21,834 nt of DNA, taken from IMG/VR virus record IMGVR_UViG_3300025115_000058, positions 1 through 21,834 of that record; one strand, written 5' to 3'. This DNA comes from a virus. Below, piece by piece: positions 2,683 to 21,776 of this stretch (positions within the stretch are counted from its first letter, which is position 1; each line of letters opens with the position of its first letter). Below the pieces are notes generated by a model, which was not told the origin of the DNA, made no database searches, and was given only the letters and a program-made list of their open reading frames with translations. The position numbers and the translations under genes are program-made.

Positions 2683-4722
2683 TCAGTATTCGGCCCCGTA
2701 CCCGGAGCCCCATCCACCTTTATCACGCTTCCTGCGCTTCGGTCCATCCTCGTCGTCCATGTGACTCTGGCGGCGATTCTCGATGCGCCGTCGCATGGAT
2801 TCGCCATCTGCGGTGCGATACGCGCAATTAGAAACAACCACCCCGCACGCGACAAACGCACCCATCACAGGCACCGTAGTACAGTAAACATCAGCCTTCC
2901 CGGCGGGACTCACGCTTAAAACTTTCACGGCACTTCCCAGAACAGGTCTTGATGTCCTTGAACCGTGTTCCCATGAAAGCGATCCCGCAGGAAGCGCAAA
3001 TTCGCTCAATGTCATCGACTCCCGATTCTCGCCTGTGCTTTGCTGCGCATTTTGGCGAGCAAAACTTCGCAATGGAGCAAAGGCACAGTCGCTTTCATCC
3101 ATCGCGTCAATGCGTTTCCATATGCCCTTGGTCGTCAGTATTCGATGGTCCGGGGTGGCCACCATCGTTTGCCCATTGGATAACATCACATTTACGACAT
3201 CCCTGGAGACGCCAGTCTTGAAGCCACCTGCGCATGGATACCAGCGACCATCGGTAGAAAGAACAAGATCGTCGTCGCGAAGATCCTTCACAGGAACGTC
3301 ACCACGACCAGTCGTTACCGGTGTATTTGACGCGATGCACGCATACGCTACCGAATCGTACCAATGGTCGGTGTCGCATTTCAGCGGCGTGTCACGTTTC
3401 TCCGGGTCCAGATTGTCGTTGTCGGCCGGAATCGTCGGGAGGGTCTTCACGATGTTGTCCGTCAGTCCCGCGAAAAAGCAGATTCCGGGCCGCTGCATCC
3501 CGCCGCCGTGAGAATCCAACCTCGCCAATACCCGCTCGGCGTTCATCTTCCTCGAACGCTTGTCCGCCTTCGTCCAGATAACTCCGTGCCTCGCCATGCG
3601 CTCCGCGTGAGAGTCCGCCGATGACACCTCGCCCCAAAGGTTGGTGTCGGCTGGTCCGGTGATCTTGGAACGCCTCCCGTGCCAAAGCCCCATCTTCTCC
3701 TCGATTCGGCGGATCTCCATCGCCACCTCGTCGCCGTCCTTGAACCGGAACGAATACTCCCGCTCGCAGATCAAATTGCCATCCGGGTCCACCGCCCACC
3801 AATGAACACACCCGTACGACTTGTAGCCCCAGTCCAGCGACCGGAACCTCGGCCAGTCCCCGGGAATCCGGAACGGCGGAATTACGTGCAAGTCCGGTCG
3901 CCAGTGCTCCGCGAAGTAGGAGTCCGCCGTCACCCACCAGTCGCCGTAAAGCAACGCCCGCTTGATGTGCTCGGGTCGCCCAAGGAGCTTCTTCTTGTAC
4001 TGCTCCACGAACCCCTTGTCCGGGTTGTCGTCGATGGTCGCCGGGATGTAGATGCGGGTTACGTAGTCCCCGTTGTCCAACTTCTGCCGCATCAGCTTCC
4101 GCCCCGATGGCGCAGGGTCAACGAACACATCGCGCACCCACCCCGGGCCTGGATTGGAAGCGCCTCGAACGCACGCCATTCGCCGAAGCACCGGATTCGT
4201 CGCACGGTTACGCGAGCAAATTTGCTGATACTGCGTGTCCGTGAACTGCGTCATCTCATCGAAGAAGATGTGGACGTAGGAGTGCGTGTAGTAGTTCTCC
4301 CATGAGTCCGGATCCTTGCAATGGCCGAAGACGAACTGCAAACCGCTGGAAAAAACGAAGGTCATCGTCTTTTCGCGGAAACGCACGTTCGGGTCGATGG
4401 CCTTGAACACCGGAGCCGCACGGCGAATCGTGGTATCGAGACCCGCGGTCTTACGACGAAGGTGTAGGCACTGGTCGTCGGCGAGCGTCCCCCACTTCAC
4501 GATTCCACGCTTGCAGAGCTCGTTCGCCACCACCACGACCGGCATGGCGTCGTGTAGACCCCACAGGGATTTGCCAGTGCCAGCCGCACCCGCCACCAAC
4601 GCCTCGTCTACTCGAAGACGATGGCACTCTTTTCCCCATGGGGAAGCCTGGTATATCCCGGGAATCTCCACGAAGTCAATCTCGTGAAGCCGATCTGTTG
4701 GGATATTCGACAGGTCCAGCAT
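2683..4722 (-). CDS. terL: Terminase large subunit, interrupted by an intein
   Basis: ATP-driven packaging motor and nuclease that cuts and pumps phage DNA into the prohead through the portal. The ATPase domain shows Walker A AGAAGTGKS (residues ~44-52) and Walker B VHIFFDE (150-156). The RNase H-like nuclease domain shows acidic residues at D297 (SLDWGY), D359 (PADTNLW) and D456 (HWYDSVAYA). Residues 462-632 are an intein placed five residues after the last catalytic Asp. Splicing would join ...DSVAYA to CAYRTADGE..., leaving a 508-residue terminase, a normal size. The ATG abuts the TAA of the glycosyltransferase gene (TAAATG). The C-terminus after splicing is basic and short. Confidence 0.93.
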   Translation of the reverse strand: MLDLSNIPTDRLHEIDFVEIPGIYQASPWGKECHRLRVDEALVAGAAGTGKSLWGLHDAMPVVVVANELCKRGIVKWGTLADDQCLHLRRKTAGLDTTIRRAAPVFKAIDPNVRFREKTMTFVFSSGLQFVFGHCKDPDSWENYYTHSYVHIFFDEMTQFTDTQYQQICSRNRATNPVLRRMACVRGASNPGPGWVRDVFVDPAPSGRKLMRQKLDNGDYVTRIYIPATIDDNPDKGFVEQYKKKLLGRPEHIKRALLYGDWWVTADSYFAEHWRPDLHVIPPFRIPGDWPRFRSLDWGYKSYGCVHWWAVDPDGNLICEREYSFRFKDGDEVAMEIRRIEEKMGLWHGRRSKITGPADTNLWGEVSSADSHAERMARHGVIWTKADKRSRKMNAERVLARLDSHGGGMQRPGICFFAGLTDNIVKTLPTIPADNDNLDPEKRDTPLKCDTDHWYDSVAYACIASNTPVTTGRGDVPVKDLRDDDLVLSTDGRWYPCAGGFKTGVSRDVVNVMLSNGQTMVATPDHRILTTKGIWKRIDAMDESDCAFAPLRSFARQNAQQSTGENRESMTLSEFALPAGSLSWEHGSRTSRPVLGSAVKVLSVSPAGKADVYCTTVPVMGAFVACGVVVSNCAYRTADGESMRRRIENRRQSHMDDEDGPKRRKRDKGGWGSGYGAEY
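2827..3339 (-). mobile_element. Mini-intein in the terminase nuclease domain (171 aa)
   Basis: Hint-type protein-splicing element. It begins with Cys (CIASNTPVTTGRGDVPVKDL, block A), has a block B core with ATPDHRIL, and ends with DVYCTTVPVMGAFVACGVVV followed by Ser-Asn and a +1 Cys. The penultimate residue is Ser instead of His, as in some DnaE inteins. The usual block F Asp is Cys and the His is Ala. No LAGLIDADG or HNH motif is seen in frame. Residues ~547-600 of the host protein have no intein character, and the same DNA encodes a cysteine-rich zinc-finger pattern in another frame (see the separate entry). Whether this intein still splices cannot be told from sequence. Confidence 0.9.
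2891..3094 (-). other. Out-of-frame double zinc-finger segment inside the terminase intein
   Basis: In the reading frame shifted from the terminase frame, the open stretch from 3094 to the TGA at 2893-2891 encodes two cysteine clusters, FCSPKCAAKHRRE and ICASCGIAFMG...KTCSGKCRESFKR. These are typical of treble-clef/zinc-ribbon modules. If one T were added to the TTT at 3079-3081, the intein frame would read CAFCS into this module, giving CxxC-x5-CxxxC. Removing one base near the T-run at 2918-2921 would return to the block F frame (SVSPAGKADVY). There is no ATG or GTG in this frame upstream of the clusters and a stop precedes it at 3097-3095, so it is not an ordinary separate gene. Two compensating frameshifts, recoding or sequence error are the alternatives. 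Confidence 0.7.
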
Positions 4723-5849: not shown

Positions 5850-6379
5850 TTTTTCACCGCCGTTGCCGTGAGGTCTTGCGCTACCTCGCGGTAGTGGTTC
5901 ACCGCAAAACCCTGCGTCTCCTGGTTTCGCTGCGTCCATGGCGGAATCAGCGAGTACCCCCATGTCACCTCGAAGTCGCACTCAAGCCCAACGTGAGGCG
6001 CATTTGTAGCACGCCATTCCTTCGACAAGTAGTAGAACGAGAACTCCACCACAGGTGGCCACTTGTGAGTTGGGTCGCCGTAAGCGCGCCCGCTCGACCA
6101 GTGCGGCACCACGAGCGTCATCTTCGCGCCCACCTTCATCACCCGGTAAAGCTCATTGTAGAACGCAATGCGCTCTTCTCCGTCCAGGTGTTCAATGAAG
6201 TGTGAGCAATAAACCTCTTCCACCTCGCCGTCCTTGAACGGCAATGGCTCCTTGCGCACGTCCATCACAGTATCCACGCCGTCGAACTTGATGGCGTCGA
6301 TTCCATGGAACCCTTCTCTCTTGTTTTTTCCGCATCCTATGTCGATTTTCACGTCTTGCTCCCGTGTTACGTTTCCCAT
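5846..6379 (-). CDS. Class I SAM-dependent methyltransferase
   Basis: A 177-residue protein with a Rossmann-type SAM-binding motif KIDIGCGKNK (residues ~11-20), an acidic residue at the end of strand 2 (GIDA), and the later pattern YCSHFIEHL...FYNELYRVMKVGAKMTLVVPHW typical of Methyltransf_11-like enzymes. The substrate is unknown. Being next to a glycosyltransferase-like gene, it may modify a glycan, DNA or a virion component (inference). The ATG at 6379 is the only ATG near the start; it overlaps the end of the fibre-like gene by 13 bases. The ribosome site is weak (AGG). It ends with an ATGA coupling to the next gene. Confidence 0.82.
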   Translation of the reverse strand: MGNVTREQDVKIDIGCGKNKREGFHGIDAIKFDGVDTVMDVRKEPLPFKDGEVEEVYCSHFIEHLDGEERIAFYNELYRVMKVGAKMTLVVPHWSSGRAYGDPTHKWPPVVEFSFYYLSKEWRATNAPHVGLECDFEVTWGYSLIPPWTQRNQETQGFAVNHYREVAQDLTATAVKK

Positions 6380-7809
6380 GCCTGATTTACGAAGTTTGCA
6401 TACCAATACTGTCGGGTATTCGCCGAAATCACCGATGCCGGCATGGTGCTCGTTGTCGTGACGGCGCTCGCTATCCCGAATCCGATCCCAAACGTCGGAT
6501 TCGATGAAAAGGATTGATCCGTAATGCTTATTCCAAGCCTCTTGAACGTCAGCGACCGTGGCTCAAGGTGAACGTTGGACAAGTTGAACGTGTGGGAAAG
6601 GCCCGTTAATGAGCTCGTCGAGCTGTGTCGGTGGGCGATGAAGTACAAGCCCTCCGAAAGCGACGTTTGGCACGGAATCGCTATGAACCGGTTGCTCTGC
6701 AAAAAAAGCATGAAGTTCGATGCGCTCGAAGTCGTCGTAAAAGACGATGTTCCGCCCGTGGTATTCGTCACCCATCTCAGTGTCATGGTATTTGAAAGCG
6801 AGGTCCACGACATGCTGAGCGACAGCCCGAAAGACGCGGTGGTTACGGTCGTAAGGCGCGATGAGTTTGTCCCCGTATCCTCACGGCGAAAGATGGTGAT
6901 GCCGTGCGAATAGGAGTGCCGCTGGTTGCCCGAGCCGCTTGTCGAAGTGCTAAAGTGGGCGGCAAGGCTGAACGACTTCAACACCATGATGTTGCTGAAC
7001 GTCAGCGGCTGGTCGAGAGACATCGGGTTGAACCACCACGAAGCAGGGGCGTGGCTGGAGGCTCCGGTTCCGGTGATAAGAGGGAATAGCTCTCTCTGAG
7101 ACAGCACGATTGCCGCTCCGCCACCGCCCGATGCCGCGGACAATGAAAGTGTGAAGCCCGCGCTGTTACTGGCGGTCGTTCCCGACAGGTTGGTGAGGTT
7201 CAGCGTCGGGTTGCCGTGCGAGTGATCCGACAGAGCCGCCGTCGTCAGCGCATTGTGAGAGCCGACGATGGTGTGAAGGCCACCCGTCCCGGAGGACAGC
7301 GAAAGCGTAACACCGTTCAGATTGGTGAAGGCGAGCCGGCCGACCGTGCCGGACGTTGCGGAGTCGGATACCGTCCACGACGTGAGCGCCACGGGTGCAG
7401 CCGCCGACAAGGAAAGCGTGAGGCCGGCCGAGTTCGAGTTGGTGGTGCCGCTCAGGTTGGTAAGGTTGAGCGTCGGGTTGCCGTGGGAGTGGTTGGACTG
7501 CGCAGCGGTGGTCAGGGCATTGTGAGACGCGACCATCGAGCCGTTCGACGTGTAGAACGAAACACCGTTGAGGTTTCCGAAGGTAGCCGTTGAGTACGAG
7601 AACGATCCATTGCTTCCCGACAGTGCCGGGGTGACACCGCCACCGCCACCACCCGCTGCCGATGCCGTCAGGGTCGAGCCACTGAGCCCGAAGGAAACGC
7701 CGTTGGAGTTGTTGAAAACGAGGCTAGAGAGTGAGCCCGACGACGTGCCGGCGGAGAACGTGATGTTCCCGCCTCCACCGGACGTTGTTTCTGGCACAAA
7801 AAGCGGCAT
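6367..7809 (-). CDS. Tail-fibre-like repeat protein
   Basis: A 480-residue Ser/Thr/Gly/Asn-rich protein that looks like a phage fibre or other surface-exposed virion protein. A 44-residue unit beginning SHNALTTAA and containing HSHGNPTLNLTNLSGTT appears at about residues 95-138 and 184-227. A related F-N-x-NGV-S-F element occurs three times (about 32, 77 and 161). Glycine tracts (GGGGGG near 53) act as linkers. The His-x-His in each repeat recalls metal-binding fibre repeats. The C-terminal ~230 residues are non-repetitive and could form the receptor-binding or trimerising head. The ATG at 7809 shares a base with the upstream TAA. The position upstream of the terminase is unusual for a fibre gene. 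Confidence 0.72.
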   Translation of the reverse strand: MPLFVPETTSGGGGNITFSAGTSSGSLSSLVFNNSNGVSFGLSGSTLTASAAGGGGGGVTPALSGSNGSFSYSTATFGNLNGVSFYTSNGSMVASHNALTTAAQSNHSHGNPTLNLTNLSGTTNSNSAGLTLSLSAAAPVALTSWTVSDSATSGTVGRLAFTNLNGVTLSLSSGTGGLHTIVGSHNALTTAALSDHSHGNPTLNLTNLSGTTASNSAGFTLSLSAASGGGGAAIVLSQRELFPLITGTGASSHAPASWWFNPMSLDQPLTFSNIMVLKSFSLAAHFSTSTSGSGNQRHSYSHGITIFRREDTGTNSSRLTTVTTASFGLSLSMSWTSLSNTMTLRWVTNTTGGTSSFTTTSSASNFMLFLQSNRFIAIPCQTSLSEGLYFIAHRHSSTSSLTGLSHTFNLSNVHLEPRSLTFKRLGISITDQSFSSNPTFGIGFGIASAVTTTSTMPASVISANTRQYWYANFVNQAWET

Positions 7810-16735: not shown

Positions 16736-19432
16736 ATGCAACTTACGCTTGTGAGGCCGCCGGCCACCGAACCACGCGATCCAATGGGACACCTGCGCGA
16801 CTACCAGCGCGCAAGCGTCCTTGGGGTCGAGACTTCGCTTGGCCGCGCGGACTCGGCGCTCCTGGTCCTGGCCACGGGATTAGGTAAATGTCTGGGGCGC
16901 GGTACGGGCGTTATGCTCTCTGACGGTCGCGTCGTTCCCGTTGAGGATGTTCGCGTCGGGCATCGCCTCATGGGCCCAGATGGCCGACCGAGGAATGTCC
17001 TTAGCACCACTCGTGGCACTGGTCCCTTGTATCGAATCGTCCCGGTGAAGGGAGATCCTTGGATTTGCAACGACGCCCATGTGTTGACTCTAAAGCACAC
17101 CGTCACGGGAGATGTGGTTGATATCGCTTTGCCGGATTATCTGCGCAAGGACAGGACATTTCGCCATGTGATGAAGCAGTTTGCCGTGCCCGTTGAAGCA
17201 TTTGAAAACGGCCGGACCGAGCTCTCCGTGGACCCGTATTTCCTGGGTGTCTGGCTTGGAGATGGCCGCAAGGATCTTTCCCAGGGGGTCCAAGTCTCAA
17301 AGCCTGATGTGGAAATCAGGAATGCGTGTGAGTCGATGGCAACGTCGTGGGGACTCGCTCTCAGGGTCGACAATTACAAGTCGTGTCCGACCTACAGGAT
17401 CGTTACTGAGGGAAGAAGAAACCCACTCAAGGACGAGATGGTGTCCTTGATGGATGGAACGCCGCGCGTTCCGCCCGTCTACTTGACGGCGGCTCGCCAT
17501 CATCGGCTTGCATTGTTGGCTGGCTTCCTGGACACGGACGGCTATGCGACCGGCGGCGGATGTGAGTTTGTCCAAAAGTCAAAGGACATCGCGCAAGGCA
17601 TGGTTTTTGTCGCCCGTTCCCTTGGGCTCAAAGCTGTTGTCTCCACGAAGACTGTCGGCCACGGCGATTATGTCAGGGTGTTCTTGTCCGGCGACTTCTC
17701 GGAAGTTCCATTTAGAATCAAGAGAAAAAAGCCCGAGGCAAGGCGCATAAACAAAGATCCGTTGCGCACGGGAATTTCGGTGGAGCCATTTGGCGACGGT
17801 GAATACTTCGGGTTCACTCTTGATGGGGACGGGAGGTTTCTACTTGGGGACTTCACCGTTACCCATAACACCGAAACGGCTATCGCCGTAGGGGCTCGCC
17901 ATCTCGCCGCCAACCCGGAGGGCCAGGTAGCGGTTCTCGCTGGCCGACAGGGGCTGGTGACGCAATTTGCGGAGCGCATCAAGCGCACCACCGGAGAGGA
18001 GGCCGAGATCGAAATGGGCGCCATCCGGTCGTTGCACTCCCGGTGGATCGTGTGCTCAAAGGACTCGCTCCACGCTGGACGCCTCAAGGGCATTCCGCAC
18101 CTCAAGCCGTCGCTGGTAATCGTCGATGAGGCCCACCACGCCGCGGCCGACTCCTACAAGAAGGTGCTCGAACACTTCGGAACGAAGACACTCGGACTCA
18201 CCGCTACCCCAGATCGGGCCGATGAAAAGGCGCTCGGAGCTGTGTTTGATGAGGTTGCCTACCAGTACGAGATCGACGACGGCATTAGGGACGGTTGGCT
18301 TGTCCCCATCAAGGTCTTCCGTTGCGTCGTTGACTCCCTGGATTTTTCATCGGTCAAGACCACCGCGGGAGACTTCAACCAGGCCGAGCTCGACGCCCTG
18401 ATGAAGGTCGAACAGGTAGCCCACAAGACGGTGCAGGTCGCACTTCAACACGGCGCCGAGAAAGCCCGGGGACTCGTGTTTACCACCAGCATCGAGAACG
18501 CCGACCTGCTCACGGAGGTATTCAACCACTACGCTCCCAAGTCCGCCGTATCGGTGGATTCCCGAAAGAAACCCGAGGACAACGCCCGGGCGTTCGCCGC
18601 CCACAAGTCCGGCGACGCTAAATGGATGGTCAACGTCGGGATGTATACCGAGGGCATGGACGATCCAGCGATTGACTTCATCGTAATGGCTCGCCCGACG
18701 AAATCCCGTGCGCTCTACGCCCAGTGCCTCGGTCGCGGCACCCGAACGCTGCCCGGAACAGTAACGCCCGCCATGAGCACGGCAGAGCGCCTGGAAGCTA
18801 TCGCTGCAAGCGCAAAGCCCTGCGCCGTGGTGCTGGACATTTCGGGCACCGCAGGGCGCCACAAGCTCGTGGGACCGGAGGACGTGCTGGGCGGCAAGTA
18901 CCCCGAGAGCTTGATTGCCAAGGCGAAGCGCAAGATCGCCGCATCCGGCAAGGTGGTCAACGTCGAGATGGCACTGGACTACCTGCGCCGCCAAGCTGAG
19001 ATTGCCAAGCGGCAGAAGATCCGCGATGCCGCAAAGGTAATGGCCAAAGTCGGATCTCGCCTCGAAGCGGTGGACCCATTCACGACGTTTGGGGTCGATG
19101 CTCCAAATTCATGGGGCGAACCCAACCGATACGGCTTCAAGCGCCCCACTCCAAGGATGGTCGAGGTCTTGAGGAAGATCGGAATCGAGCCGACCAGTAA
19201 ATTGTCTCACCGGGAAGCGTCTGCGCTCTTGACCGAGATGTCCCGCCGACGAGAACAAGGCCTCGCCACGTTCAAACAGCTTCGTACCCTGCGGCGTGCC
19301 GGCATCGTGGACTGCGCCAAGTGGTCTTTCATCAAGGCAAGCCGGACCATCGACGAGCTGGCAAAGGCAGGTTGGCGAATGTCCGCCGACCGCGTTCGAG
19401 AACTCGAAGCAACCGTGAGGGATATGGAATGA
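16736..19432 (+). CDS. SF2 DEAD/DEAH-type helicase, interrupted by an intein
   Basis: An 898-residue precursor; 571 residues after splicing. Motif I is ATGLGK|TETAIA, split by the intein between K51 and T379. Motif II is VIVDEAHH (461-468), motif III LTATP (488-492), then the MYTEGMDDP region (636-644), and motif VI QCLGRGTRT (663-671). These define a superfamily 2 helicase of the ResIII/UvsW-like kind, acting in replication or recombination. The C-terminal ~170 residues (VLRKIGIEPTSKLSHREAS, KQLRTLRRAG) form an extra helical domain, possibly DNA-binding. The stop overlaps the next start as ATGA. Confidence 0.9.
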   Translation: MQLTLVRPPATEPRDPMGHLRDYQRASVLGVETSLGRADSALLVLATGLGKCLGRGTGVMLSDGRVVPVEDVRVGHRLMGPDGRPRNVLSTTRGTGPLYRIVPVKGDPWICNDAHVLTLKHTVTGDVVDIALPDYLRKDRTFRHVMKQFAVPVEAFENGRTELSVDPYFLGVWLGDGRKDLSQGVQVSKPDVEIRNACESMATSWGLALRVDNYKSCPTYRIVTEGRRNPLKDEMVSLMDGTPRVPPVYLTAARHHRLALLAGFLDTDGYATGGGCEFVQKSKDIAQGMVFVARSLGLKAVVSTKTVGHGDYVRVFLSGDFSEVPFRIKRKKPEARRINKDPLRTGISVEPFGDGEYFGFTLDGDGRFLLGDFTVTHNTETAIAVGARHLAANPEGQVAVLAGRQGLVTQFAERIKRTTGEEAEIEMGAIRSLHSRWIVCSKDSLHAGRLKGIPHLKPSLVIVDEAHHAAADSYKKVLEHFGTKTLGLTATPDRADEKALGAVFDEVAYQYEIDDGIRDGWLVPIKVFRCVVDSLDFSSVKTTAGDFNQAELDALMKVEQVAHKTVQVALQHGAEKARGLVFTTSIENADLLTEVFNHYAPKSAVSVDSRKKPEDNARAFAAHKSGDAKWMVNVGMYTEGMDDPAIDFIVMARPTKSRALYAQCLGRGTRTLPGTVTPAMSTAERLEAIAASAKPCAVVLDISGTAGRHKLVGPEDVLGGKYPESLIAKAKRKIAASGKVVNVEMALDYLRRQAEIAKRQKIRDAAKVMAKVGSRLEAVDPFTTFGVDAPNSWGEPNRYGFKRPTPRMVEVLRKIGIEPTSKLSHREASALLTEMSRRREQGLATFKQLRTLRRAGIVDCAKWSFIKASRTIDELAKAGWRMSADRVRELEATVRDME
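16889..17869 (+). mobile_element. Full-length LAGLIDADG intein in the helicase P-loop (327 aa)
   Basis: Splicing domain: Cys1 (CLGRGTGVMLSDGRVVPVED), block B WICNDAHVLTL, block F YFGFTLDGDGRFLLGDF and the C-terminal VTHN with Thr as +1 residue. In block B the usual TxxH reads NDAH. The homing endonuclease has two LAGLIDADG-like helices, FLGVWLGDG (169-177) and LAGFLDTDG (261-269), with acidic residues D176 and D268 intact. It therefore looks active both as splicing element and as homing enzyme. Insertion between the P-loop Lys and Thr is a common site for inteins in NTPases. Confidence 0.93.
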
Positions 19433-19782
19433 GCAACGTCAGCGGCATTGGATTCGGCGACGGCAACGGCGATGGATTCGGCGACGGCAACGGCGATGGC
19501 TACGGCTACGGCGGCGGAGACGGCGGAGCCGGCAACGGTAACGGCGGAGCCGGCAACGGTAACGGCTCCGGTGATGGCAACGGAAGCGGCAGCGGCGGAG
19601 GCGGCGGTAACGGCGGCGGCAGCGGTAGCGGCAACAGCGGCGGCGGCGGCAGGGGCAGCGGGGGCGGATACGGCAACGGCATAGGCCACGGTAGGGGCAA
19701 CGTCAGCGGCATTGGATACGGCGACGGTAACGGCGACGGCAGAGGCTTCAACTACGAGTCAGCAACGCGGAGGGCGCGATGA
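19429..19782 (+). CDS. Glycine-rich cassette protein 1
   Basis: A 117-residue protein in which Gly is nearly every second residue (GDGNGDGFGDGNGDGYGYGG). The other positions are Asp, Asn, Ser, Tyr, Arg and His. It ends FNYESATRRAR, a version of the C-terminal tag shared by the family. It starts as ATGA on the helicase stop and ends as ATGA on the next copy. The strict GX pattern could form polyglycine-type or Ca-binding structure (inference). The same DNA is open in other frames only because of the hexamer-like repeat. Confidence 0.72.
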   Translation: MSNVSGIGFGDGNGDGFGDGNGDGYGYGGGDGGAGNGNGGAGNGNGSGDGNGSGSGGGGGNGGGSGSGNSGGGGRGSGGGYGNGIGHGRGNVSGIGYGDGNGDGRGFNYESATRRAR

Positions 19783-20036
19783 AACCCGCTGAAAACGAAG
19801 TGACGTACTACGGTCACGGCCACGGCGATGGCATGGGCGGAGGCGGATACGGCAACGGCGACGGAGGCGGCAGGGGCGAAGGTAGCGGCGACGGAAGAGG
19901 CAACGGCTGCGGCGGTGGCGACGGCATCGGCGACGGCTTCGGTAGTGGATGGGGCGGCGGGAGCGGCAGCGGGGGCGGCTCCAAATACGGCTTTGGCTGG
20001 GACTACAAATCATCGACGCGGAGGGCGAAAGAATGA
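19779..20036 (+). CDS. Glycine-rich cassette protein 2
   Basis: An 85-residue member of the same family. The N-terminus reads NEVTYYGHGHGDG, a version of the THYG start. The middle is (GX)n, and the end is FGWDYKSSTRRAKE. Overlaps both neighbours by ATGA. Unlike the tail alone, the middle varies freely in length between copies. Confidence 0.72.
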   Translation: MKPAENEVTYYGHGHGDGMGGGGYGNGDGGGRGEGSGDGRGNGCGGGDGIGDGFGSGWGGGSGSGGGSKYGFGWDYKSSTRRAKE

Positions 20037-20311
20037 GCGACGACGACTGGGGCATTGATGTCGAGCACGAGGAACCGGAAGTAGATCCTGCTTCCACCCG
20101 ATTCATGGCCGACAAGCGGGCGCAAGCTCTCCACACCCGAAGGGTCGATAACGTCGAGGCGCAAATCCGGGCAAACCGCCCTGGCTGGAAGCTGATTTCG
20201 TCGTGGCCCCACCTTCGGCTCTGGGAAACCGATCAATTCACTTACGCCGCCCATTCGGACGGCAAACCATTCATCGTGTCGGCGGTTATGCCGCGAGAAG
20301 GAAAGAAATGA
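20033..20311 (+). CDS. Small unknown protein between glycine-rich cassettes
   Basis: A 92-residue protein. The acidic start MSDDDWGIDVEHEEPEVDP is followed by a basic helical part (KRAQALHTRRVDNVEAQIRA) and a beta-rich end. No family is recognised. ATGA overlaps on both sides. Confidence 0.65.
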   Translation: MSDDDWGIDVEHEEPEVDPASTRFMADKRAQALHTRRVDNVEAQIRANRPGWKLISSWPHLRLWETDQFTYAAHSDGKPFIVSAVMPREGKK

Positions 20312-20619
20312 GCATCGAGAAGTGGGGGCTTGAAGTCAGCGATGCGCAAATGCTTCGCGTGAAGTTCGAGGCCAAGCGATGGAAGGACATTGCTGTCTTG
20401 GCAAAGTCGCTGGCGAACATCCTGAGAAAGTCGGAGGGCCGGCTGAACACCGATTCCGCCGTGGTGATGCTGCATCAGGTGGCCGAGCTTGCGAAGAATT
20501 GCACGCCAGTTGCCATATGCCCATGGTGCAACGCCGACGGTGGCGAATGTTCGAGGTGCATGGGGACCGGTGCTATCGGTCCGTTGTTGATGGACGCTGC
20601 AAAGGAGATGAAGAAATGA
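20308..20619 (+). CDS. Small protein with a zinc-binding CxxC pair
   Basis: A 103-residue protein. The helical N-terminal two thirds (VLAKSLANILRKSEGRLNTD) is followed by CPWCNADGGECSRCMGTGAI, two CxxC motifs nine residues apart with the CxGxG style of DnaJ-like zinc sites. Function unknown. Coupled by ATGA to both neighbours. Confidence 0.67.
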   Translation: MSIEKWGLEVSDAQMLRVKFEAKRWKDIAVLAKSLANILRKSEGRLNTDSAVVMLHQVAELAKNCTPVAICPWCNADGGECSRCMGTGAIGPLLMDAAKEMKK

Positions 20620-20870
20620 ACAAGACCTATGGGAAATACGATTCGCTCAAGGCTATTTCTGAATCGGAACAAGGGTATTACAACCTCGGCCAGATCCACG
20701 GCGACAAGTGCGGCTTTCTGCGCGGGACACTCGCAGCGATGAAGCTCATTGCGCTTGAGGGAGATCGCTTGTCGAAAGAGGGGGACTTCAAAGCCGCCGA
20801 GTTGGCGAATGAGTTTGTGGAAAAACTCAGGGCGACCATCGAGCCAAAGCGGAATGGGCCAGTGCAATGA
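20616..20870 (+). CDS. Small helical unknown protein
   Basis: An 84-residue protein, probably mostly helical (GKYDSLKAISESEQGYYNLG ... GDFKAAELANEFVEKLRATI). No family is recognised. It lies between the CxxC protein and the third glycine-rich cassette, with ATGA overlaps on both sides. Confidence 0.65.
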   Translation: MNKTYGKYDSLKAISESEQGYYNLGQIHGDKCGFLRGTLAAMKLIALEGDRLSKEGDFKAAELANEFVEKLRATIEPKRNGPVQ

Positions 20871-21409
20871 GCACGCGCTACGGTCACGGCAACGGTGACG
20901 GCTGCGGCGACGGCTACGGCTTCGGTTTCGGCTACGGCAGCGGAAGCGGAAGCGGACACGGCATGGGCACCGGCGACGGCAGGGGCAGCGGATACAACTA
21001 CAAATCAGCAACACGAACAACAGAGGGCAAAATGAGCACGAGCACGAAGAAGAAGATCACGAAGACCAAAACCAAGGCCAAGAAAGCAACCAAGAGAGCA
21101 ACCGCGAAGAACCACCTCGGCAAGCTGGTTATCCTGCGCGGCTACCTGTCCGGTGTCCACATCGCGATCCTGCGCGACTACGGTCGGAAAACAGGGTGGA
21201 TCCGAGTAGATGGGGCTCGACGGCTCTGGTCCTGGCAGGGCGCAACCACGCTCGATGCGATCAGCCGCAACGGAGCGGCGGAGACAGGGTGCCGCGTGAC
21301 AGAAGCTGTCGATGACCTCGAGATCAAAGTATCGGACGTGTGCGAGATTTACCCGATGTCCGAAAAGGCGATCGCATGGGTGAATCGTCAACCGGTGTGG
21401 ACGCTGTAA
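20867..21409 (+). CDS. Glycine-rich cassette 3 fused to a DUF6948-like domain
   Basis: A 180-residue protein. Residues 1-50 are a cassette (TRYGHGNGDG ... YNYKSATR). The reading frame then continues through TTEGK into MSTSTKKKITKTKTKAKKAT and a folded domain (KLVILRGYLSGVHIAILRDY ... ARRLWSWQGATTLDAIS) resembling the phage DUF6948 family. In other copies a stop follows the cassette tag. Here the stop is missing, so the two are joined. The internal ATG at 21032 has AGAGGG before it and could start the 125-residue domain alone. The Lys/Thr-rich linker suggests nucleic-acid binding (inference). Confidence 0.72.
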   Translation: MSTRYGHGNGDGCGDGYGFGFGYGSGSGSGHGMGTGDGRGSGYNYKSATRTTEGKMSTSTKKKITKTKTKAKKATKRATAKNHLGKLVILRGYLSGVHIAILRDYGRKTGWIRVDGARRLWSWQGATTLDAISRNGAAETGCRVTEAVDDLEIKVSDVCEIYPMSEKAIAWVNRQPVWTL

Positions 21410-21468
21410 GCAGACTGGCATCCCGTGCGTGCGCTCACAGATCGGCGCACGGGACCGAGGGCAACACG
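21410..21468 (+). promoter_or_regulatory. Intergenic hairpin before cassette 4
   Basis: CCCGTGCG (21422-21429) pairs perfectly with CGCACGGG (21446-21453). GAGGG follows as a ribosome site for the next gene. No T-run is present, so an attenuator or cassette-border structure is as likely as a terminator. Confidence 0.5.
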
Positions 21469-21546
21469 ATGAAAAAAACGCATTACGGAGGCGGCGAGGG
21501 CGGCGGCTACGACTACAAATCCGCGACGCGGAAGGCGCAACGATGA
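21469..21546 (+). CDS. Minimal glycine-rich cassette 4 (25 aa)
   Basis: MKKTHYGGGEGG, then GYDYKSATRKAQR: the conserved start and end of the family with almost no glycine middle. It shows that the two ends are the constant parts and the middle is expandable. Overlaps cassette 5 by ATGA. Confidence 0.62.
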   Translation: MKKTHYGGGEGGGYDYKSATRKAQR

Positions 21547-21776
21547 GCGACGAAACGCATTACGGTGACGGCATCGGCGGCGGCAGCGGCAGCGGCGACG
21601 GAATCGGCTACGGCGACGGATTCTGCAGCGGCGACGGAAGAGGCAGAGGCAGCGGCGAGGCCGACGGCAGTGGCAGGGGCCACGGTAGCGGCATGTGCAT
21701 GGGCAGCGGCAGCGGCGACGGTAGGGGCGGGGTGGGCTTCGACTACAAATCGGCAACACGGAAGGCGCAACGATGA
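21543..21776 (+). CDS. Glycine-rich cassette protein 5
   Basis: A 77-residue protein starting MSDETHYGDG, with a GX-rich middle (GGGSGSGDGIGYGDG) containing two cysteines, and ending VGFDYKSATRKAQR. The tag is identical to that of cassette 4. The tag DNA ends in GGAAGGCGCAACG directly before the next ATG and so carries the next ribosome site. Confidence 0.7.
   Translation: MSDETHYGDGIGGGSGSGDGIGYGDGFCSGDGRGRGSGEADGSGRGHGSGMCMGSGSGDGRGGVGFDYKSATRKAQR

Follow-up and report, generated by a model that had tools for sequence, protein, structure and literature searches.

How does a segment in the middle of one gene come to spell out part of a second protein in another reading frame? The question is raised by the virus record IMGVR_UViG_3300025115_000058 of IMG/VR, a stretch of 21,834 bases that was analysed over its full length and is called the window below. 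On its minus strand the gene for the terminase large subunit contains an intein, and within this intein a cysteine-rich segment (2891-3094) can be read in the -1 frame, in which every codon begins one base ahead of an intein codon. We argue, with a probability of roughly 93 %, that the terminase intein of the window once carried a complete gene for an HNH homing endonuclease with two zinc ribbons, nested in the -1 frame, and that the cysteine-rich segment is the C-terminal relic of this gene.

The terminase open reading frame (ORF), extein and intein together, extends over 2683-4722 on the minus strand, encodes 679 amino acids and is recognized by PHROG families 2 and 979 (E=6e-27) and by Pfam Terminase_6N (E=7.6e-6). 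Within it the intein occupies 2827-3339 (minus), a continuous frame of 171 amino acids, not two separate ORFs, which starts with C1 and ends in SN ahead of Cys+1 (2824-2826). Pfam Intein_splicing matches it with E=1.1e-6 and a bit score of 29, under the curated cut-off of 35.8, and the closest solved intein by profile is gp41-1 (6qaz, E=4e-19). A preliminary description of the locus had placed the splicing blocks at both ends in the terminase frame, and this is where all of them are found. The N-terminal splicing region (3085-3339, minus) comprises blocks A and B, with TPDH (residues 62-65) at 3145-3156; C1, T62 and H65 are invariant in the family alignments A3 and A4. The C-terminal region (2827-2925, minus) comprises blocks F and G (...AGKADVYCTTV...VVVSN), in which VY is near-invariant and N171 invariant in the same alignments, up to the SN|C junction. 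The penultimate residue is Ser, not His, as it is in 17 of 81 relatives. The mini-intein of the window probably still splices.

The -1 frame is open across exactly 2891-3094 (minus), between an upstream stop (TGA, 3095-3097) and a terminal one (TGA, 2891-2893), and its translation between the two is KRLCLCSIAKFCSPKCAAKHRRESGVDDIERICASCGIAFMGTRFKDIKTCSGKCRESFKRESRREG, with two cysteine clusters. When a profile of the nested HNH proteins was compared with all six frames of the window, the sole match was to the -1 frame at 3070-2897 (E=5.7e-14), the runner-up reaching E=0.53; the same bases translated in the terminase frame or in the third frame gave no match, and no HNH_3 domain was found elsewhere in the record. 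The matched part covers positions 156-213 of the 215 in the profile, and the PHROG HNH families 1271 and 15471 likewise match the -1 frame at their C-termini (2e-8 and 8e-8). Alternative frames may stay open over 60 codons, which is all that speaks for a chance resemblance to HNH proteins; with such an E-value in a single frame of the window, at the expected place and offset, the probability of this explanation is practically nil. The match is to the C-terminus of the HNH family, and the earlier suggestion of a decayed, intein-borne DNA-binding module coding in another frame is borne out.

The two zinc clusters that had been proposed for this segment do not fare equally. Zinc ribbon 2 (CASC...CSGKC; 2930-2998, minus) is whole and keeps all four cysteines, which align with C164, C167, C182 and C186 of the family alignment A5. 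In ribbon 1 only FCSPKC is homologous to the HNH family; it represents the leftover second half (CSPKC; 3047-3061, minus), aligned to FCSNxC of the family, while the CLC ahead of it is unaligned and sits at the probable deletion junction. The correspondence can be followed in the alignment of the window, KFCSPKCAAKHRRESGVDDIERICASCGIAFMGTRFKDIKTCSGKCRESFKRESRREG, with the nested protein of Acinetobacter phage Highwayman, EFCSNSCKSKHRRLSGVDDIDLKCEYCSTVFRSNKYAKRKTCGRSCANRLRYKRKEQG.

Complete versions of the nested gene are found in related terminase inteins. Loci (numbered with an L below) were pooled from an IMG/VR profile scan, a scan with the window intein, a genome scan and phage records, and 121 HNH-bearing loci were classed: 83 are nested and 2 more probably so, the intein frame is interrupted at 9, and 27 fall into other classes, proportions that are no estimate for the population because only the best 80 of the 442 relatives in the IMG/VR scan were kept and examined. 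At all 83 nested loci the HNH gene is in the -1 frame and the N and C blocks of the intein share one uninterrupted frame, whereas the third frame has several to many stops. A distant locus from Armatimonadetes (L120) is the sole case with both intein blocks in the HNH frame. In the terminase of Rhodobacteraceae phage LS06-2018-MD07 (L003), where the nested layout was first noticed, the intein frame is open and the -1 frame encodes an HNH_3 protein, complete and including a zinc ribbon, with its own ATG behind GGAGG. The same layout is present in Tetrasphaera phage TJE1, in phage Highwayman and in a faecal phage contig. HNH_3 is matched by 53 of 53 nested proteins and Intein_splicing by 56 of 56 inteins (E<=1e-3), the HNH catalytic core is present in 53 of 53 complete relatives scanned, and terminase models match 10 of the 10 host ORFs tested. 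Among solved HNH structures the nearest by profile is the HNH homing endonuclease 1u3e, a weak match. Nested forms occur in phage and viral contigs and in genomes assigned to Bacteroidota, Nitrospirota, Patescibacteria, Pseudomonadota and one Thermoplasmatales archaeon, assignments of host that are uncertain since the genomes are mostly metagenome-assembled. In the records of LS06-2018-MD07, TJE1 and Highwayman the annotation gives the terminase alone, so that the nested gene is invisible there. As to the zinc ribbons, two nested loci (L031, 1411-2322; L038, 2495-3406) have the zinc-ribbon part of the HNH gene duplicated, with profile positions 121-209 matched twice.

These relatives bear directly on how the module came to be out of frame. 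The preliminary description had proposed that it originally belonged to the intein frame and was moved by a lost T near 3079-3081 and a gained base near 2918-2921, and had named recoding or an assembly error as possible causes; mutation or a sequencing error might have had the same effect. One additional T near 3080 would indeed create a plausible CxxC (CAFCS) at the N-terminal edge. Yet all 83 complete relatives, drawn from isolates and from independent metagenomes, carry the module in the -1 frame, and none has it in that of the intein. The shifted frame is accordingly the ancestral one, which makes a pair of indels, a recoding event or an assembly error unnecessary. Moreover, the supposed indel lies upstream of AKFCS, where the profile match begins, and the match requires no correction; two compensating indels would have to be invoked where one in-frame deletion suffices. 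Related inteins with a CAFCS...CSGKC segment in the intein frame had been expected on the indel account and were looked for, an expectation that failed. The finding that had been named as a refutation, a shared in-frame sequence without conserved cysteines in the other frame, was not made either: the relatives vary in their intein-frame sequence and keep the cysteines of the other frame. On the evidence of the 83 relatives we reject the indel model, which is extremely unlikely.

Which of the two overlapping frames is under constraint can be read from the way in which they diverge. Comparison of 11 independent close pairs gives 421, 338 and 743 substitutions at the first, second and third codon positions of the HNH gene. 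Its third position coincides with the second of the intein, so that most changes there are silent in the HNH protein but not in the intein. The pairs are more alike in the HNH frame (amino-acid identity 0.75) than in that of the intein (0.60; Wilcoxon p=0.001), and it is the HNH frame that is constrained. In agreement with this, columns with 80 % agreement make up 43 of 216 in the HNH frame and 2 of 215 in the middle of the intein, compared with 11 of 79 and 8 of 33 in its splicing blocks. Stop codons were counted at 75 nested and 13 free-standing loci: the intein frame has 0 stops per nested gene where 5.9 are expected with random synonymous codons, while in the corresponding frame of the free-standing homologues 7.2 are observed and 7.8 expected. 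Because the middle of the intein is poorly conserved but avoids stops, it looks like a linker that needs only to be translatable.

The constant -1 offset of the nested cases could also be taken as a sign of programmed ribosomal frameshifting from the terminase frame, which would produce an intein-HNH fusion, and loose slippery motifs do lie near the nested start in 18 of the 71 loci that remain after clustering at 90 % identity. No such motif is present in the other 53, and the nested HNH gene is usually preceded at a short distance by an in-frame stop. Between this stop and the HNH domain 58 of the 71 loci have an ATG (12 expected) and 68 a start codon of any kind (29 expected); Shine-Dalgarno (SD)-like sites are enriched at the nested starts (55 % vs 24 %, p=1e-9). 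Since starts and SD-like sites are enriched and slippery motifs few, internal initiation is favoured over frameshifting, which we largely reject as improbable.

In the window itself the nested gene has decayed. The HH/N catalytic core is missing from the relic, which retains nothing beyond profile positions 156-213. The intein is 171 amino acids long versus a family median of 321, so that about 150 codons would be missing, and a deletion in a multiple of three would preserve the -1 offset, as is seen. There is no ATG, GTG or TTG before the ribbons in the -1 frame of the window up to position 2974, CTG and ATT being the only candidates. As no usable start precedes the ribbons, the zinc-ribbon relic is probably not translated. 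One could suppose instead that it still works as a small DNA-binding protein, for example as a repressor or a homing accessory, given that ribbon 2 has lost none of its four cysteines. With ribbon 1 truncated, a stop just upstream and only CTG or ATT to start from, this is very unlikely.

Some observations weigh against the reading of the window as a once complete nested gene, or at least blur its details. The collections searched yielded no close relative of the window intein: an IMG/VR scan with the 64-amino-acid zinc-ribbon peptide gave no match, a scan with the window intein returned only distant relatives (29-62 % over parts), and no stretch of the mixed intein alignment A3 was conserved enough to serve as a scan query. 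The deletion is thus deduced from length and alignment and not seen between sister elements, and its breakpoint is approximate because the first CxxC of the window cannot be aligned.

An allele of the terminase gene that is exactly without the intein (VAYAC|AYRTA) is found in a second virus, IMGVR_UViG_3300013130_000085 (L002), whose sequence agrees with that of the window at 99.2-99.6 % over 9.1 kb. Presence of the intein is thus a polymorphism among nearly identical viruses. The nearest differences between the two records lie 256 and 118 bases from the intein junctions, and no co-conversion tract was seen flanking the insertion in this comparison. The two sequences are compatible with a gain of the intein as well as with its loss.

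Taken at face value, these findings suggest the following course of events. In the intact family, one DNA segment would give rise to two proteins: translation in the terminase frame would produce an intein with a poorly conserved linker in its middle, while initiation at a start codon within the intein would produce the HNH endonuclease. The nested enzyme would then cut intein-free terL and repair would copy the element in, as is established for HNH homing endonucleases and inteins, and self-splicing of the intein would restore a working terminase. In the window, a deletion of some 150 codons, a multiple of three, would have taken the HNH core together with the start, leaving a mini-intein and a presumably untranslated zinc-ribbon fossil in the -1 frame.

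The nested layout is one of several in which this HNH family and these inteins occur. In Brochothrix phage BL3 (L130, NC_015254.1, 727-2607) the N block of the intein (E=5e-19) and its C block (E=5e-12) are in one frame, and the -1 frame between them matches HNH profile positions 141-210 (E=2e-24), a zinc-ribbon relic independent of that in the window. The intein frame of BL3 has stops, and the terminase is annotated as gp2 followed by gp3; the two look like the halves of a split-intein terminase. Nine further loci (L060, L074, L084, L089, L105, L107, L108, L114 and L116) have an intein frame that is broken at the HNH ORF or across it; wherever an N block can be recognized, the ORF that contains it stops close to the start of the HNH gene, with the C block further downstream. 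Such a layout would be expected if the two halves of a split intein flanked an endonuclease gene. Among natural split inteins, those of fractured genes (gp41-1 type) were reportedly described by Dassa et al. in 2009. The resemblance to them consists in the profile match to 6qaz and in the layout shared by the nine interrupted relatives and BL3; unlike them, an intein of the nested class is encoded by a single unbroken ORF, with which the endonuclease gene overlaps. Free-standing genes of the same HNH family, outside inteins, adjoin the terminase genes of BP10, EauM-23, CL2, PAE1, Shemara, SN1 and Poludnitsa (L131-L136, L009), and those tested have stops in the frame that would correspond to the intein. 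Finally, L091 and L007 (ctRVW222) are HNH-free terminase mini-inteins of about 130 amino acids; L091 shares the AGKADVYC block of the window, and unlike the window such mini-inteins have no endonuclease relic left. In a tree of the HNH proteins, with rough support, the nested, free and split forms are interspersed and point to no single origin; on its starred branches the nested label changes at least 9 times, with the bootstrap unsettled.

A close known parallel is the ShiLan element, an out-of-frame HNH insertion in which no splicing domain, intein or intron was found (PMC11855218). Both have an HNH gene with zinc fingers nested in another frame under its own start codon, a host frame that stays open and a sporadic spread. 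They differ in that the start is GTG in ShiLan and usually ATG with SD enrichment in the terminase family, and in that the host frame of the latter is an intein with all splicing blocks. An HNH gene in another frame within an open host frame is found at the 83 family loci, always at -1, and in the window only as a relic. An intein splicing domain and HNH_3 are also combined in the dCTP deaminase intein of cyanophage CL131, whose excision was shown experimentally (PMC6293099); there the HNH_3 is in frame, as a domain of the intein polypeptide, whereas in the terminase family it has a gene of its own in the -1 frame. In the literature searched we found no description of out-of-frame HNH genes inside inteins, although one may already be contained in the preprint of Gosselin et al. 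2025, on actinobacteriophage inteins of non-canonical architecture, or in Gorbalenya 1998, on non-canonical inteins, to which the ShiLan paper (PMC11855218) refers in connection with overlapping frames.

The window has a second intein, of canonical layout, in a DEAD/ResIII-type helicase gene (16736-19432, plus strand), with a LAGLIDADG endonuclease in frame. Further along the same strand, 19321-21776 holds five short Gly/Asp-rich ORFs with tandem-repeat bodies and a common C-terminal tail, YxYKSATR or close variants. A Gly/Ser-rich ORF (6367-7809, minus) contains an internal repeat, 7186-7269 and 7453-7536, each piece of which matches L002 at a second place with 81-82 % identity.

Inteins are usually described as a single polypeptide of which the homing endonuclease is a domain. 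In the common terminase class the endonuclease is instead a gene of its own, overprinted on the intein, so that splicing and endonuclease functions can be expressed and lost independently. We see an even chance that these terminase inteins, which occur in phages across many bacterial phyla as well as in an archaeal genome, constitute a distinct mobile-element architecture in which splicing domain and HNH gene overlap in a fixed -1 register with internal initiation, and in which overprinting would interconvert nested, split, free-standing and mini-relic forms and so offer a route to split inteins. Split inteins are tools of protein engineering, and the series of nested, split and mini-relic forms makes their origin testable in culturable phages. 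The window, for its part, illustrates the decay of the element beside a nearly identical virus without the intein.
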